IMG/VR virus record: IMGVR_UViG_3300007351_000029
Span: 1 to 41,056 of that record
From: a virus
Length of the DNA stretch: 41,056 nucleotides
Strand: one strand, 5' to 3'
Made by a program: the position numbers and the translations under genes
Part shown: piece by piece, positions 12,053-41,056 of the stretch
Layout: every line of letters starts with the position of its first letter
How positions within the stretch are numbered: position 1 is the stretch's first letter
The notes under the pieces: model-generated
Told to the model about the DNA's origin: nothing
The model's input: the letters and a program-made list of their open reading frames with translations, nothing else
The model's database searches: none

Positions 12053-12469
12053 ATGCCTTACATTCACGTCGCTCCAGATGCCACTTATGGACTCCAGCAA
12101 GTTAACTCACGTTTTGAGTTAGCCGCTGGAATCGAGTCCTCGCCGATGTTCCCTGCTATACTAGAAGCAGAGGCACGTAGGACGGCTCGACAAACTGTTG
12201 ATGCCAACAAGCTCCGTGGGTGGCACTGGAGGAGTGATCTTCCTGTTGAGGTTGATAAGAGTCAGCTTCAGATAGCACTTGACGGTTCCTCACCTAGAGC
12301 GCTTGATAATGGGCTTACGAGTTACTCGGATAACCTTGTAGCCTATGTAGTCAAGATGTGGTTTGAGTGCCGTCAAGTTATTACTGAAGATATCACTTAC
12401 GACACTGACAGTGAAGCTCGAGCAGACGGGTTTGTTAAGGACTTAAACGAGTTTGAGGAGATAGACTAA
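12053..12469 (+). CDS. Head-tail connector or head accessory protein
   Basis: 138 aa directly after the coat gene and overlapping the next ATG by one base (TAATG). It is acidic with a helical centre (ILEAEARRTARQTVDANK) and an acidic C-terminus. Small proteins here are usually head-completion or adaptor proteins. I see no motif that separates these options, and no Shine-Dalgarno beyond what coupling with the coat gene provides. Confidence 0.75.
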   Translation: MPYIHVAPDATYGLQQVNSRFELAAGIESSPMFPAILEAEARRTARQTVDANKLRGWHWRSDLPVEVDKSQLQIALDGSSPRALDNGLTSYSDNLVAYVVKMWFECRQVITEDITYDTDSEARADGFVKDLNEFEEID

Positions 12470-25050: not shown

Positions 25051-25929
25051 TCACTTTGCTCGTTCAAGGACTCGTTCTAGTTCAGGCCTCATCCCGAGGC
25101 TGCCGTGAATCTGATTAATCATCATGTTCCACTCCATACCAGCCAGAGGCGTCCCTTCCAAGTCTAAATTAAAGCCACACTTAACATACTTGGCAGTAAT
25201 GTTAGCCCCAGTCTTGTACGTCTGGATACCTACGTCCCAGAGCCTTTCCGGGTCAACACTGCCCTCATTGATAACACGCTTACCAGTCAGCCTTGACTCA
25301 ATAATACCGTCCCTATTGGGAGTATCTACACGCTCGTCAGTCAAGTGGTGAACTGTTACCAAGTTCTTATTAATGCCCTTGAACATGGTATAAATAGTGC
25401 GGATAGTGTCGTTAGGGTGCCCCCACTCGATTTGGATAAGCTGCTTGCGGAGCTTACTCTCATCCTTATTCCCTACCAACTGCTTCTCTTGTAACTCCTG
25501 CAAATAGGCATCCGCTTTAATACGCCTCGCCAGCGTCACTGTATCTAGTACACAGGAGCGAACAGTCTCATCCTCTACAACTCTGCCCAACAGCACCATT
25601 GCCTTCGACCAAAGCTCACTATTCCCGAACACTCTATTAGAGTCCATTTGAATAGGTTGTGGGAGTTCAAACACCTGAATGTCCAGCTCATTATCCCACT
25701 GCCCTAATACTTCAGCCTTGAACTTTGCCGGTTCAGTGCTAGGGTTGAATAGAGACTTCTTATAGGGAACAATCCCTATCTTCTTTTCTTTAAACAAGGC
25801 ATCATACTGTTTCCCAAACAGTGCCCGGTCAGCCCCTAGGTCGAAGCTCAGCCCCACCACCCTCCCTGGGGCCGTATAGGCCATAGTGGTCTTTGCAGTA
25901 GCCGGTTCACCCTGAATGCCTAGAATCAA
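25051..25929 (-). CDS. Sak4-like RecA-family ATPase
   Basis: 292 aa, TTG start that overlaps the stop of the upstream gene. Walker A is at residues 7-15 (GEPATAKTT). Walker B-like residues lie in CVLDTVTLARR, and a sensor-like strand NLVTVHHLTDERV follows. The length and order match the AAA_24/Sak4 group, phage recombination ATPases that load with SSB and anneal single strands. It lies with Cas4-like and XPF-like nucleases, a plausible recombination set. Other phage P-loop ATPases of this group act in replication, so the exact role is open. Confidence 0.78.
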   Translation of the reverse strand: MILGIQGEPATAKTTMAYTAPGRVVGLSFDLGADRALFGKQYDALFKEKKIGIVPYKKSLFNPSTEPAKFKAEVLGQWDNELDIQVFELPQPIQMDSNRVFGNSELWSKAMVLLGRVVEDETVRSCVLDTVTLARRIKADAYLQELQEKQLVGNKDESKLRKQLIQIEWGHPNDTIRTIYTMFKGINKNLVTVHHLTDERVDTPNRDGIIESRLTGKRVINEGSVDPERLWDVGIQTYKTGANITAKYVKCGFNLDLEGTPLAGMEWNMMINQIHGSLGMRPELERVLERAK

Positions 25930-26120
25930 AACAAGTCTCCCTTACAAGTCAGACACCCCATTACTCCATGCGGAGAACAGGTAGCGTTGTCTAAAAACTC
26001 ATCCCCTGTCATCATCTCCATCGACTGCCATTGCGTCTCCAAGATGTGGTAATCCTCCGGGCTGTCGGCTATCAAGTCCATCACTGCCCACATTCCCTCG
26101 TAGTCCAGGGCCACCTGCAC
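25926..26120 (-). CDS. Small Cys-containing protein, out of frame with TSCPD gene
   Basis: 64 aa from GTG 26120, with GAGGG about seven bases upstream. A later GTG at 26114 and an ATG at 26093 are alternatives. The protein reads well (YEGMWAVMDLIADSPEDYHI) and ends with CSPHGVMGCLTCKG, a zinc-ribbon-like or thiol pair. Its stop overlaps the TTG start of the Sak4-like gene, which supports real translation. It runs through the last 122 bases of the TSCPD gene in another frame. It is either an overlapping gene or the frameshifted tail of the TSCPD protein. Confidence 0.55.
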   Translation of the reverse strand: MQVALDYEGMWAVMDLIADSPEDYHILETQWQSMEMMTGDEFLDNATCSPHGVMGCLTCKGDLF

Positions 26121-26502
26121 CTTTGCCCTCAAGGTAGTCAATCTCAATCCTACGGACGATATAATCAAAGACGGAGGAACAGCTTCTAATCTCTGGGTCA
26201 GTGGTGATTCCGTTAGGTTCAAAGATGGTGTTCTTGTAGCTGTCAATGATTTCCTGCAGCGGTGTCCCGTACTGAATTGCAATAGACACCATCTTAGCAA
26301 AGCCCTCCATGACGCCTCGAAGGGTAGTACCTGTCTTAGCTTGCGTAAGAAATATCTCTCCAAGTGACCCATCAGGGTACTCCCCAAAGATGATGTATAG
26401 ACTAGGGGCACCTCCAATTTTTACTTTTCGGCTATGCCCTGAACGACGCCCAGGAAGTGGGTTCCGTTCACCTCGTTGAAAAGGGATCAGTGTATCTGAC
26501 AT
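25999..26502 (-). CDS. Orphan TSCPD-domain protein (class II ribonucleotide reductase C-terminal type)
   Basis: 167 aa. Residues about 30-125 match the TSCPD domain found at the C-terminus of vitamin B12-dependent ribonucleotide reductases: GSLGEIFL, then LRGVMEGFAKMVSIAIQYG, then FEPNGITTDPEIRS and a final FDYIVRR. No reductase catalytic domain is in the window. It may act with the host enzyme or regulate it. The last 43 residues are Gly/Asp/Pro-rich and unlike a folded domain. They lie where the frame of the next gene reads better, so the true C-terminus is uncertain. Confidence 0.8.
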   Translation of the reverse strand: MSDTLIPFQRGERNPLPGRRSGHSRKVKIGGAPSLYIIFGEYPDGSLGEIFLTQAKTGTTLRGVMEGFAKMVSIAIQYGTPLQEIIDSYKNTIFEPNGITTDPEIRSCSSVFDYIVRRIEIDYLEGKGAGGPGLRGNVGSDGLDSRQPGGLPHLGDAMAVDGDDDRG

Positions 26503-26676: not shown

Positions 26677-26748
26677 TTACTTCCACATCAGGTAAACAAC
26701 TACAGACCCTAATACTAGTACCGTAAATACAGTTAGCCAGGGTTCCAT
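26677..26748 (-). CDS. 23-aa membrane micropeptide
   Basis: ATG at 26748 overlaps the stop of the Cas4-like gene (TAATG), and the stop lies one base before the next ATG. The peptide has a short polar start (MEPW), one hydrophobic segment (LTVFTVLVLGSVVVYLMW) and a terminal Lys, so a single membrane helix. The exact fit between two coupled genes argues for real translation despite its size. Role unknown; it may place or modulate the neighbouring proteins at the membrane. Confidence 0.55.
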   Translation of the reverse strand: MEPWLTVFTVLVLGSVVVYLMWK

Positions 26749-27425
26749 TAGAGTAATCCCTGCTCTCTCATGCTACACATTGCAGCATATGGACAGTCCC
26801 CACATTCAAAGTCCTTATCGGCCCCACCCCAATCTACCACGCGGTACTTGTACTGCTTTGGTGCTAACTTAGCTTCTTCGTGAGTCTTAAGTATAGCCAG
26901 CCGTTCCAGCATCCAGTCCCAGTTGTCATCAATTTCCTTTTGCGTAGCTTCCACATGGTACACAATTAGATCAGGAAAGGGCGGCGCATAGTTTCCCATG
27001 AGGTGTAATATAGCAAAGTGCCCGTCAGTCCTACCAGTGGTTTTCATGTAGGAAAGAAACTGCTTATGCCAGTTCTTGCCAAGGTCCTCGAAACCCTTAT
27101 TAGAGCTTTTTCGAGTGCTCTTAATTTCATAAAACTCAGCATTAACTTCTACATGGTCAGTGTGAAAGCTGATTCCATCTAACACACCCTCAGTGGGACG
27201 TTGACTACCTTGCAGCAATGTCTTTTCAAACGCCAGCCCTGTAACATAGAACATAAGTGTCCTACGTTCAGGCATTTGAGGTAGCATTTGCCGTTGATAG
27301 TAAGCTTTTGTGAGACACCCTATCAGGGAGGTAACCCCAGGAGCCTCCTGTTGTTCCCGCGCCATAGCGGCCCACATTTGCCTGAGTAACTTATCCTCAT
27401 GGGCAGGAACTCTAGTAGCTTTCAT
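26748..27425 (-). CDS. Cas4/RecB-like PD-(D/E)xK nuclease with Fe-S cysteines
   Basis: 225 aa. One Cys lies near the start (C37, in LIGCLTKAYY) and three near the end (C208, C211, C217, in CGDCPYAAMC). This is the 1+3 cysteine pattern that holds a 4Fe-4S cluster in Cas4 and AddB-type nucleases. The catalytic core is D83 in GVLDG, then E100-x-K102 (YEIKSTR). It likely trims DNA ends in recombination. No CRISPR array or Cas1/Cas2 is present. It sits between two membrane micropeptides and is coupled to both by overlaps. Confidence 0.87.
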   Translation of the reverse strand: MKATRVPAHEDKLLRQMWAAMAREQQEAPGVTSLIGCLTKAYYQRQMLPQMPERRTLMFYVTGLAFEKTLLQGSQRPTEGVLDGISFHTDHVEVNAEFYEIKSTRKSSNKGFEDLGKNWHKQFLSYMKTTGRTDGHFAILHLMGNYAPPFPDLIVYHVEATQKEIDDNWDWMLERLAILKTHEEAKLAPKQYKYRVVDWGGADKDFECGDCPYAAMCSMREQGLL

Positions 27426-27526
27426 GGTTTAGCCTTTTGCCAGTAGTAGATCAAACTAAAAGCAACTATTATTAATACAACTATTTTTACTTCTTCTGGA
27501 GCTGTATAATACAGTGTTCTAATCAT
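27422..27526 (-). CDS. 34-aa membrane micropeptide
   Basis: ATG at 27526; the stop overlaps the Cas4-like start (ATGA). Residues 13-29 (VKIVVLIIVAFSLIYYW) form one hydrophobic helix, and the tail is basic (QKAKP). The ribosome site is weak (GAAAGTTAAAG). The start lies 15 bases after the structured RNA, so this gene's translation could depend on that RNA. Role unknown; a phage membrane or holin-like peptide is possible. Confidence 0.55.
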   Translation of the reverse strand: MIRTLYYTAPEEVKIVVLIIVAFSLIYYWQKAKP

Positions 27527-27541
27527 CTTTAACTTTCGAGG

Positions 27542-27690
27542 CCCGGTGGGTTGGAGTCAACGAGACAGTGAGCATCCCCATGAAACTGCCACCCAATCGC
27601 CTCCACTTACAGAGCCCTGTAACCGGAATAGACAGGATATGTATGACCCTTCACCCACCCGACCTCTGGTAGTAGTCAGGCCCACCTGGG
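27542..27690 (-). ncRNA. Predicted structured RNA, four-way junction
   Basis: No coding frame fits here. On the minus strand, P1 pairs CCCAGGTGGG (27690-27681) with CCCACCGGG (27550-27542), nine pairs with one bulged A. Inside it are three hairpins: CCTGAC/GTCGGG, TCCTGT/ACAGGG (GU pairs allowed), and a long irregular one whose strands TGGAG GCGA GGCAGT pair with ACTGTC TCGT CTCCA. A further TTAAC/GTTAA pair could extend P1. The RNA lies between tRNA-Leu and the micropeptide/Cas4-like genes. It may be a free RNA or a 5' leader controlling that operon. Pairing done by eye. Confidence 0.5.
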
Positions 27691-27719
27691 GAGGTTAAGC
27701 CCGACGAAAACCCTAATGG

Positions 27720-27745
27720 TGTGAGCCTCATCCTCCTAGCTCACA
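27720..27745 (-). other. Hairpin with Shine-Dalgarno-like loop
   Basis: A perfect seven-pair stem, TGTGAGC/GCTCACA, with a 12-base loop. On the minus strand the loop reads TAGGAGGATGAG, so it shows AGGAGG directly followed by ATG. It lies between tRNA-Leu and the structured RNA. It may be a processing or stability element. The zero spacing of AGGAGG to ATG makes a normal start unlikely. Confidence 0.45.
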
Positions 27746-27784
27746 TGGTAGCCCATCCAGCTTTGACCTTGCTACTTCACGTAC

Positions 27785-27870
27785 TGGTGCCGAAGGAGGG
27801 GGTCGAACCCTCATACCATTACTGGCGGCTGATTTTAAGTCAGCTGTGTCTGCCATTCCACCACTTCGGC
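27785..27870 (-). tRNA. tRNA-Leu (anticodon UAA)
   Basis: 86 nt including encoded CCA. The acceptor stem GCCGAAG pairs with CTTCGGC. The anticodon arm CTGA-CTTAAAA-TCAG gives UAA, reading UUA. A long variable arm (CGCCAGTAATGGT region) marks it as a class II tRNA, and the T arm GAGGG-TTCGACC-CCCTC is complete. UUA codons are common in the phage genes, so it probably supplies a codon that is rare in the host. Confidence 0.95.
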
Positions 27871-27871
27871 T

Positions 27872-27947
27872 TGGTACGACGGACAGGATTCGAACCTGTA
27901 ACCGCTGACTTATAAGGTCAGTGCTCTAACCGTTGAGCTACCGTCGC
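27872..27947 (-). tRNA. tRNA-Ile (anticodon UAU)
   Basis: 76 nt including encoded CCA. The acceptor GCGACGG pairs with CCGTCGT (the first pair is G-U), the D arm is GCTC/GAGC, the anticodon arm CTGAC-CTTATAA-GTCAG gives UAU, and the T arm is ACAGG-TTCGAAT-CCTGT. It reads AUA directly and so needs no lysidine. AUA is frequent in the phage genes. It lies one base from tRNA-Leu. Confidence 0.93.
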
Positions 27948-27952
27948 ATAAC

Positions 27953-28207
27953 CTACTCCTTGGCCGTGTCCCAGGTGCTATTGAAGCCAATAGCTGCTGA
28001 GGCAACAACCACTACACCCACAATAAACTCAGCGACGTCACCAGTGAACCTATCGGTGAGCACAAGTGCTCCACCCCAAGATGTGGTGATAGCCAAAGTC
28101 AACGCTGGTGTAATCTTGCCGTTAATCATAGGCACGACTCGTTTAATCAACTCCACTCCCGCTGTAATAAACGGGGCGGAGAGCATAAAGGTGTACGCCT
28201 CGTCCAT
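27953..28207 (-). CDS. Putative holin
   Basis: 84 aa with three hydrophobic segments (about 7-28, 32-50 and 58-76), short loops and a short polar C-terminus, the layout of a class I holin. It would form membrane holes that let the endolysins reach the wall. It shares one base with the upstream gene and sits just before the two tRNAs. The endolysins lie 2 kb upstream in the same operon. No family motif is diagnostic, so other small membrane roles remain possible. Confidence 0.62.
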   Translation of the reverse strand: MDEAYTFMLSAPFITAGVELIKRVVPMINGKITPALTLAITTSWGGALVLTDRFTGDVAEFIVGVVVVASAAIGFNSTWDTAKE

Positions 28208-28884
28208 TAGACCTTACTGTGCTTCCCCTCACCATCAACGGTGAGCTTACCAGCCTCAACCAGTTCCTTCAACAGCGTACCACGGGCAAGCTTCTCAGTA
28301 GCCTCAGTGTAACCACTGTGCCCCCGGATAGAGTTGTCCGAATAGTAAGCCTGCATGAACTCGTTGCCAGTCTTGCCTTCGGCCATATCAAGGATGACCT
28401 GCTCAAAATCAATGGACTGAACAGCCGACGCTGTACCCCAGCCCTCAACCTCCACAATCTGCCAAGCCTTTGCGTCAGTGTTGTCCTCCCACTTTGGAGA
28501 CTCCTGGCTACCCAGGTTCTGACGGAGTGTAGCCTGACCATACTTCCAGTGAACCCGCTTGCCTTCAAGCGCATAGAGGTCACGCTCACCTGACGGAGCG
28601 GCTACACGGAAGCTTTCCGTGAACACAGACCAGGGCTGGTTGTTAGCCGAGGAATAATTAATCCGCGGGCTAAACGTAGGAAACGGGAAAGGAATGCGCG
28701 AGGAAATCACCTCAATATCAGTGTGGTCAAAGTATACCACACGTCGCTTTGCGCCCTCACCCCCAAACCTATTGGCCTCATCAACGTCTCGCACTTCCTT
28801 CAACACCCCCCAGAACTCAGTGACATCAGGCTCAAAGCTCTGCGGGGGGTCAGCGGACAGTGGACGACGGCCTTCAGTGGTCAA
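28207..28884 (-). CDS. Possible single-stranded DNA-binding protein
   Basis: 225 aa, TTG start overlapping the helicase stop (TTGA), with GGGAG about seven bases upstream. The first 160 residues are beta-rich with many aromatics (RVVYFDHTDIEVIS, WSVFTESFRV), as in OB-fold proteins. The C-terminus is helical with a charged end (KLTVDGEGKHSKV). It follows the RepA-like helicase, where phages often encode an SSB, but no acidic SSB tail is visible. The function is inferred only from fold character and position. Confidence 0.5.
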   Translation of the reverse strand: MTTEGRRPLSADPPQSFEPDVTEFWGVLKEVRDVDEANRFGGEGAKRRVVYFDHTDIEVISSRIPFPFPTFSPRINYSSANNQPWSVFTESFRVAAPSGERDLYALEGKRVHWKYGQATLRQNLGSQESPKWEDNTDAKAWQIVEVEGWGTASAVQSIDFEQVILDMAEGKTGNEFMQAYYSDNSIRGHSGYTEATEKLARGTLLKELVEAGKLTVDGEGKHSKV

Positions 28885-36138: not shown

Positions 36139-36335
36139 TACCCTGCCCCCTCCCCTACATTAAAGGAGTCATCTCCGGCACTGTAGCTTCTCCGTGAGTA
36201 CCTAGGATAAACCACTGACGCATTGACCACTACTGGGCTAACCTCAGGGTATCCTGAGTCATCCCGAATAGTATACCCACAGCTTAAACACTCCCCTCTT
36301 AGTACCGAGCGGGAGTTGCACTTGCTACATTTCAT
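36138..36335 (-). CDS. Zinc-ribbon protein
   Basis: 65 aa. Four Cys in CSKC (3-6) and CLSC (16-19) form a zinc ribbon, followed by an unstructured Ser/Tyr/Gly-rich tail. It lies at the start of a coupled run of small genes and directly after a hairpin-rich leader, which may control it. Function unknown. Confidence 0.65.
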   Translation of the reverse strand: MKCSKCNSRSVLRGECLSCGYTIRDDSGYPEVSPVVVNASVVYPRYSRRSYSAGDDSFNVGEGAG

Positions 36336-36349
36336 TAGCTCACTTCACC

Positions 36350-36460
36350 GACCTTTCAGGTCTCCATGACGCTAGAACACCTAGCGAGAACACCCCACGA
36401 ACAGTTATGCTCGTAGGGCACTCTCGGTAGCCGTTAAGTAGCCGGGTCTTTCATTAGACC
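36350..36460 (-). other. Hairpin-rich leader before zinc-ribbon gene
   Basis: The 151-base gap between 36336 and 36486 holds three perfect short hairpins: GACCT/AGGTC with a three-base loop (36350-36362), CGCTAG/CTAGCG with a five-base loop (36370-36386), and GGTCT/AGACC (36445-36460) whose loop contains an ATG with a nearby GGGAGGAA. A possible six-codon frame starts there. It could be a structured leader or attenuator. Seen by eye; not folded. Confidence 0.4.
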
Positions 36461-36486
36461 AATTCCTCCCTAGACTAAGGTCACCG

Positions 36487-40291: not shown

Positions 40292-41056
40292 TACCATCCA
40301 AATTGAGCTCCCACCACTCCATAGAGGCCGCGATGGTAAGGGTGGGCAGCAGGAGGTTTTCGACCACCCCGCGAGGTTTAAGGTCGTATGCTGTGGGCGT
40401 CGCTGGGGTAAGACCACCTTTGGTGTGGTTAAGGGTTTCAAGGATGCCGTCGAGGGTAAGCGCATCTGGTGGGTAGCCCCTACATATAAGGTAGCCTATG
40501 TGGGCTGGCGCATGACGAGAAGTCTTGCGGTACAGCTCAAGGATGCCGGACTTGAAGTTAACATCAGGGAAGCCGACCGCTGTATTATCTTCCCTGGCGG
40601 CGGTGAGTTTTGGATTAAGAGTGCTGACGACCCCGACAGCCTCCGCGGCGAGGGTCTTGATGGGGTTATCCTTGACGAAGTAGCTTACCAAAAGCAGGCC
40701 GTGTGGAGCGAGGCTATCCGTCCCGCGCTGGCTGACAAAAAGGGTTGGGCTATTTTTATAGGCACCCCTAATGGGAAGAACTGGTTTTATAACCTGTTTA
40801 AGCTTGCTGAACGCCGTCCTGACTGGATGGCATGGAGAAAGCCCACATTAGACAATCCCGCCATTGATCCTGCGGAAATAGAGGCGGCCAAAGCTGAGGC
40901 CTCATCCTTAGCACTGTTCCAGCAGGAATACGAGGCTGACTTCGGTGCTAGCCAGCTTCAGGTCTACCCCGACTACGACAGGGTTGTCCATCAGTGGCGT
41001 TGGGAGATACCCCAGTTTGAGGCTTTCGTGGGAGGGCTGGACTTTGGTGGGACTAC
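40284..41056 (+). CDS. terL: Terminase large subunit, N-terminal part (ATPase domain)
   Basis: This gene begins at GTG 40284, 8 bases inside terS, and continues at base 1. The joined protein is 443 aa. Walker A is G38-T45 (GRRWGKTT), Walker B is VILDE with D131-E132, and the segment with WWVAPTYKVAYVGWR is the adenine-binding/coupling region. It is the packaging ATPase and belongs with the nuclease half at 1-658. The start was placed by the overlap with terS and by frame continuity across the 99-base join. Confidence 0.93.
   Translation, partial: MPNTIQIELPPLHRGRDGKGGQQEVFDHPARFKVVCCGRRWGKTTFGVVKGFKDAVEGKRIWWVAPTYKVAYVGWRMTRSLAVQLKDAGLEVNIREADRCIIFPGGGEFWIKSADDPDSLRGEGLDGVILDEVAYQKQAVWSEAIRPALADKKGWAIFIGTPNGKNWFYNLFKLAERRPDWMAWRKPTLDNPAIDPAEIEAAKAEASSLALFQQEYEADFGASQLQVYPDYDRVVHQWRWEIPQFEAFVGGLDFGGT
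40958..41056. repeat. Terminal direct repeat, right copy (circular join)
   Basis: Identical to bases 1-99. Removing one copy gives the 40,957-bp circle and restores a continuous large terminase gene. See the left copy for interpretation. Confidence 0.95.

Follow-up and report, generated by a model that had tools for sequence, protein, structure and literature searches.

A candidate Y-shaped RNA domain between the tRNA genes and a peptide/nuclease operon of a phage genome

Background

Among the non-coding RNAs of phages and prophages are GOLLD and ROOL, which are structured, often lie near tRNA islands and have no known function (PMC12286853); they show that phage tRNA islands are an established setting for structured RNAs. 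GOLLD is often longer than 800 nt, and both RNAs are large and contain multiple pseudoknots, whereas the candidate considered here is about 130 nt long and matches no Rfam family. Closer in size are RNAC and RNAD of phage T4 (species 1 and species 2 RNA), which are late RNAs of unknown function, confirmed by Northern blot (PMC9697503). In the T4 genome, rnaC (139 nt) and rnaD (119 nt) immediately follow the last tRNA gene on its 3' side and share its strand. All of these RNAs beside phage tRNAs have been known for years, and none has an agreed function. A different point of comparison is the pRNA of phage phi29, which is about 120 nt long, in which an outer helix leads into a three-way junction, and whose ring-forming hairpin loops are complementary to each other.

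Here a computational analysis is presented of a non-coding gap within a phage genome from IMG/VR (the window, that is, the whole 41,056-base stretch of DNA that was analysed). A predicted 129-nt domain within this gap, like the T4 RNAs, lies 3' of a cluster of phage tRNA genes and has the same orientation relative to them; the T4 RNAs, however, have been seen in infected cells, whereas the domain is known by prediction. On present evidence it is a candidate predicted from a single genome. If real, it would provide a small and simple example, located before a defined two-gene operon, that should be easier to test than RNAC/RNAD, GOLLD or ROOL.

Results and Discussion

The genome and the neighborhood of the gap

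Positions 1-99 and 40958-41056 of the record are identical and the large terminase gene spans the join between its ends; the record therefore appears to be a circular assembly that is complete at 40,957 bp. (The 'linear' class of IMG/VR is described as being without end repeats, unlike the identical 99-base ends seen here.) A megablast search with the first 25 kb of the genome against 50,697 phage records returned no match. The phage's terminase differs from that of phi29 and its DNA polymerase belongs to family A. The minus strand carries the replication half of the genome, including--in 5' to 3' order--both tRNA genes, the gap, a 34-aa peptide gene and a gene for a Cas4-like nuclease (Table 1).

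Table 1. Genes and predicted RNA elements at the locus, in 5' to 3' order along the minus strand
Feature	Positions	Strand	Basis or pairing
tRNA-Ile(UAU)	27872-27947	-	ARAGORN; Rfam RF00005, 74.9 bits
tRNA-Leu(UAA), immediately 5' of the gap	27785-27870	-	ARAGORN; Rfam RF00005, 57.0 bits
Separate upstream hairpin, GUCGGGCUU.ACC/GGUGGGCCUGAC	27675-27705	-	Probability about 0.95 for most pairs
Candidate structured, Y-shaped RNA domain of 129 nt with a closed three-way junction	27538-27666	-	Predicted fold
Outer helix, 5' strand, GAGGUC.GGGUGG (also written GAGGUC.GGGUGGGU)	27654-27666	-	Probability 1.00 for all listed pairs
Long irregular hairpin, UUACAG/CUGUAA tip, GGCU loop	27591-27638	-	Pair probabilities 0.77-1.00
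Short hairpin, GGCAGU/ACUGUC	27564-27590	-	Outer six pairs 0.68-0.97, inner three about 0.38
Outer helix, 3' strand, ACCCACC.GGGCCUC	27538-27550	-	Pairs with 27654-27666
34-aa predicted membrane peptide, directly 3' of the domain	27422-27526	-	ORF; start codon at 27526
Cas4-like nuclease	26748-27425	-	PHROG 1706 'CRISPR/Cas system associated', E 7.3e-9

A preliminary description of this locus had placed a structured RNA between two tRNA genes and a membrane peptide coupled to a Cas4-like nuclease, and this genetic setting is borne out: both ARAGORN and Rfam identify the two tRNAs, the PHROG match identifies the nuclease, and the stop of the peptide gene and the start of the nuclease gene overlap by four bases. 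The peptide is weakly gene-like (codon score 0.068 per codon) and matches nothing in PHROG or Pfam. The Cas4-like protein likewise matches no Pfam family; its sequence contains a terminal cysteine cluster (CGDCPYAAMC) and an E-x-K motif (YEIKSTRK). Nearby, at 25999-26502 on the minus strand, a TSCPD domain stands alone (Pfam PF12637, E 1e-10; PHROG 84). TSCPD domains occur in ribonucleotide reductases, and no reductase core was seen near this gene.

The gap itself, which is one of the longer non-coding stretches in a compact genome, contains no open reading frame bearing the phage's coding signature (27530-27784): a 42-aa frame on the minus strand and a 50-aa frame on the plus strand score -0.17 and -0.02 per codon, respectively, whereas the median of true genes is 0.25; a coding peptide was rejected on these scores. 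Neither a tRNA or tmRNA nor a remnant of one was found within the gap by ARAGORN or Rfam, and ARAGORN at loosened thresholds called no tRNA-like gene on the minus strand of 27500-27784. (At 60% of its threshold ARAGORN gave permuted tmRNA calls, which were rejected, since they span the real tRNAs and occur on both strands.) A simple scan of 27300-28300, beyond whose reach unusual promoters lie, revealed no sigma-70-like promoter and no intrinsic terminator, which fits a single transcript reading through from the tRNAs into the operon. The codon scores and the predicted fold thus agree with the preliminary description that this is a non-coding, foldable stretch of the minus strand.

The predicted fold

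The favored fold of the domain is a three-way junction, rather than the four-way junction previously proposed for 27542-27690 on the same strand. It is closed by an outer helix of 6+7 pairs, each with a probability of about 1.0, which is followed by an inner helix, six to eight pairs long, and by two hairpins, and most of its helical pairs have probabilities of 0.8-1.0. The long irregular hairpin of the earlier proposal is recovered. As for its two simple six-pair hairpins, GGCAGU/ACUGUC is predicted as a hairpin in its own right, whereas UUACAG/CUGUAA forms the tip of the long one. What survives of the earlier claim of a structured non-coding element, therefore, is the element itself--given its position, its lack of coding signal and its well-defined predicted fold--but not the architecture assigned to it. 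Between the 3' end of the domain (27538) and the start codon of the peptide gene (27526) lie 11 bases that are outside the domain; the start region, in the prediction, pairs in part with sequence further downstream.

The nine-pair outer helix previously proposed, CCC.GGUGGG/CCCACCGGG, was rejected both on pairing probability and on forced-fold energy: in its natural context every one of its pairs has a probability of 0.000, and forcing it to form changes the energy of 27500-27784 (minus strand) from -104.5 to -88.6 kcal/mol, a cost of about 16 kcal/mol. Its two strands are indeed complementary, yet each prefers another partner in the natural context, and the upstream hairpin takes up bases that had been assigned to this helix. 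Within 27542-27690 alone, the two folds are nearly equal in energy (-56.0 and -56.1), since that stretch lacks four bases of the better helix. This near-equality, together with the true complementarity of the strands, is what a ligand- or protein-responsive switch between the two outer helices might look like. Such a switch is very improbable, however, inasmuch as the alternative lies about 16 kcal/mol above the favored fold in its natural context, the favored partner strands are also nearer to each other and so should form first, and no riboswitch in Rfam matches.

How unusual the folding energy is

The preliminary description had proposed comparing the folding energy with that of shuffled sequences. 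Applied to its own 149 bases (27542-27690), this comparison goes against it (z = -0.85; 37 of the 200 shuffles fold as well), because four bases of the favored outer helix fall outside this stretch. By contrast, 27536-27668 on the minus strand has a minimum free energy of -60.6 kcal/mol, where shuffled sequences average about -45.2 (z about -4.1), an energy as low being reached by only 2 of 2000 dinucleotide shuffles (z from -3.7 to -4.3 across seeds). Whether the borders are set at 27536-27668 or at 27538-27666, z is about -4, which is an optimistic figure inasmuch as the borders were picked after seeing the fold; for the 201-base stretch 27520-27720, z is -3.1.

These values need to be viewed against the rest of the genome. 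When the borders of the best closed domains genome-wide are picked in the same way, the domain at 27538-27666 ranks 14th by energy (z = -3.6), and three stretches inside confident genes reach z-scores of -4.2, -4.3 and -6.3. Because coding stretches score as well, energy alone is no proof of an RNA gene. What adds weight to this particular domain is its location: within a non-coding gap, on the transcribed strand, after tRNA genes and 11 bases before a start codon. The strongest z-score among the genome's 30 lowest-energy closed domains belongs to 12079-12226 on the plus strand, a domain closed by an outer helix of 13 pairs (z = -6.3) that lies within the gene at 12053-12469.

The same comparison gives some substance to a reading without function, in which the gap is GC-rich spacer DNA that happens to fold well, or else what is left of decayed genes: several in-gene stretches fold equally well or better when their borders are likewise picked, and no relative turned up in anything searched (see below), so that there is no sign of selection on the structure. 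This reading is nevertheless judged somewhat unlikely, given how rarely the shuffles reach the observed energy, how well-defined the predicted ensemble is, and the placement of the element on the transcribed strand within a non-coding gap that is among the larger ones in this compact genome.

Searches for relatives

The covariance search also proposed in the preliminary description was run against Rfam 15. At gathering score it matched the two tRNAs, with no match to GOLLD, ROOL or any other family; the earlier statement that the element belongs to no known class thus holds for Rfam. (Matches to vertebrate lncRNAs at permissive E-values of 1-3 were dismissed as chance.) The gap likewise had no blastn match at E 10 among the 50,697 phage records. 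Five single proteins--the Cas4-like protein, an ATPase (25051-25929), a major-capsid-like protein, a polymerase fragment and an AAA_25 protein--were used as queries for close relatives of the phage in IMG/VR, and none was found; genome contigs likewise yielded no close relative of the Cas4-like protein. A search with the large terminase (TerL) gave 66 loci, with up to 53% identity; in 50 of the corresponding records the Cas4-like protein was absent, as was the RNA by blastn.

A covariance model of the domain found no credible match in the TerL loci or in 38 whole records, an absence that is weak evidence, since a model built from one sequence would miss distant relatives and the collections may lack records very close to the window. 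One weak match of the model (in locus L046, E 0.079) was set aside as a simple hairpin fitting the outer helix only. The exact hairpin-tip fragment occurs in none of the viral and genome contigs. The fragment TTTCATGGGGATGCTC is common to 24 viral contigs, roughly as many as chance alone would give. The strongest model match in this set (E 0.21) was rejected as well, as it has no tRNA nearby and overlaps long open reading frames.

The role of the domain

The element is possibly a new phage noncoding RNA or riboregulator, as the preliminary description had suggested from its predicted structure and position. The most economical reading, which is adopted here tentatively and with less than even confidence, is that of a structured leader that acts in cis on the downstream peptide/nuclease operon and is exposed by tRNA processing. 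From the gene order and the predicted fold we infer the following further steps. The tRNAs, the gap, the peptide and the Cas4-like nuclease would be transcribed as one polycistronic minus-strand RNA; excision of the tRNAs would leave a downstream mRNA with the upstream hairpin, then the Y-shaped domain, at its 5' end; this domain, once folded, might shield that end from decay, tune translation of the peptide, or both; and the effect could pass to the nuclease through the start-stop overlap of the two genes. Consistent with a leader, the tRNAs, the gap and the operon are all on one strand, with the folded element directly 5' of the start codon and the last 11 bases left uncovered, and the domain combines a z-score of about -4 with high pair probabilities in a gap without coding signal. 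Against it are the equally extreme folding energies of coding stretches in the same genome, the predicted partial pairing of the start region with downstream sequence, and the lack of a homologue in the collections searched and hence of support from covariation.

The main rival is that the domain is cut from the tRNA transcript as a free, stable small RNA acting in trans, as RNAC and RNAD may suggest: these hold the same place directly 3' of the last tRNA, are of similar length, and are RNAs observed late in infection and checked by Northern blot (PMC9697503), and the domain's closed fold would suit such a molecule. On the other hand, the covariance model (R1) finds nothing in the T4 region (locus L077) and there is no sequence match either; a tRNA-like T arm, which can be read in the rnaC sequence, is missing from the candidate, in keeping with the loosened ARAGORN search; and there is no terminator on the 3' side, where the start codon lies just 11 bases away. 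A free RNA of this kind is accordingly considered unlikely. Still more doubtful is a novel class of small phage RNA with a Y shape, without a relative in Rfam or the other collections searched, that is freed from the tRNA transcript and that controls or accompanies the peptide/nuclease operon.

With phi29 pRNA, the candidate shares its length, an outer helix and a three-way junction, a likeness of general form. The candidate's loops, GGCU and GGGG, are not complementary by eye, unlike those of pRNA, and no Rfam match links the two.

A second non-coding gap in the same genome, at 36336-36486 on the minus strand, also folds strongly and contains a 19-pair hairpin; a 65-aa open reading frame starts right after it, at 36335. 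It matches neither Rfam nor the model of the 27538-27666 domain. Despite this lack of a sequence or model match it might be another element of this style, with 36345-36486 giving a z-score of -4.5.
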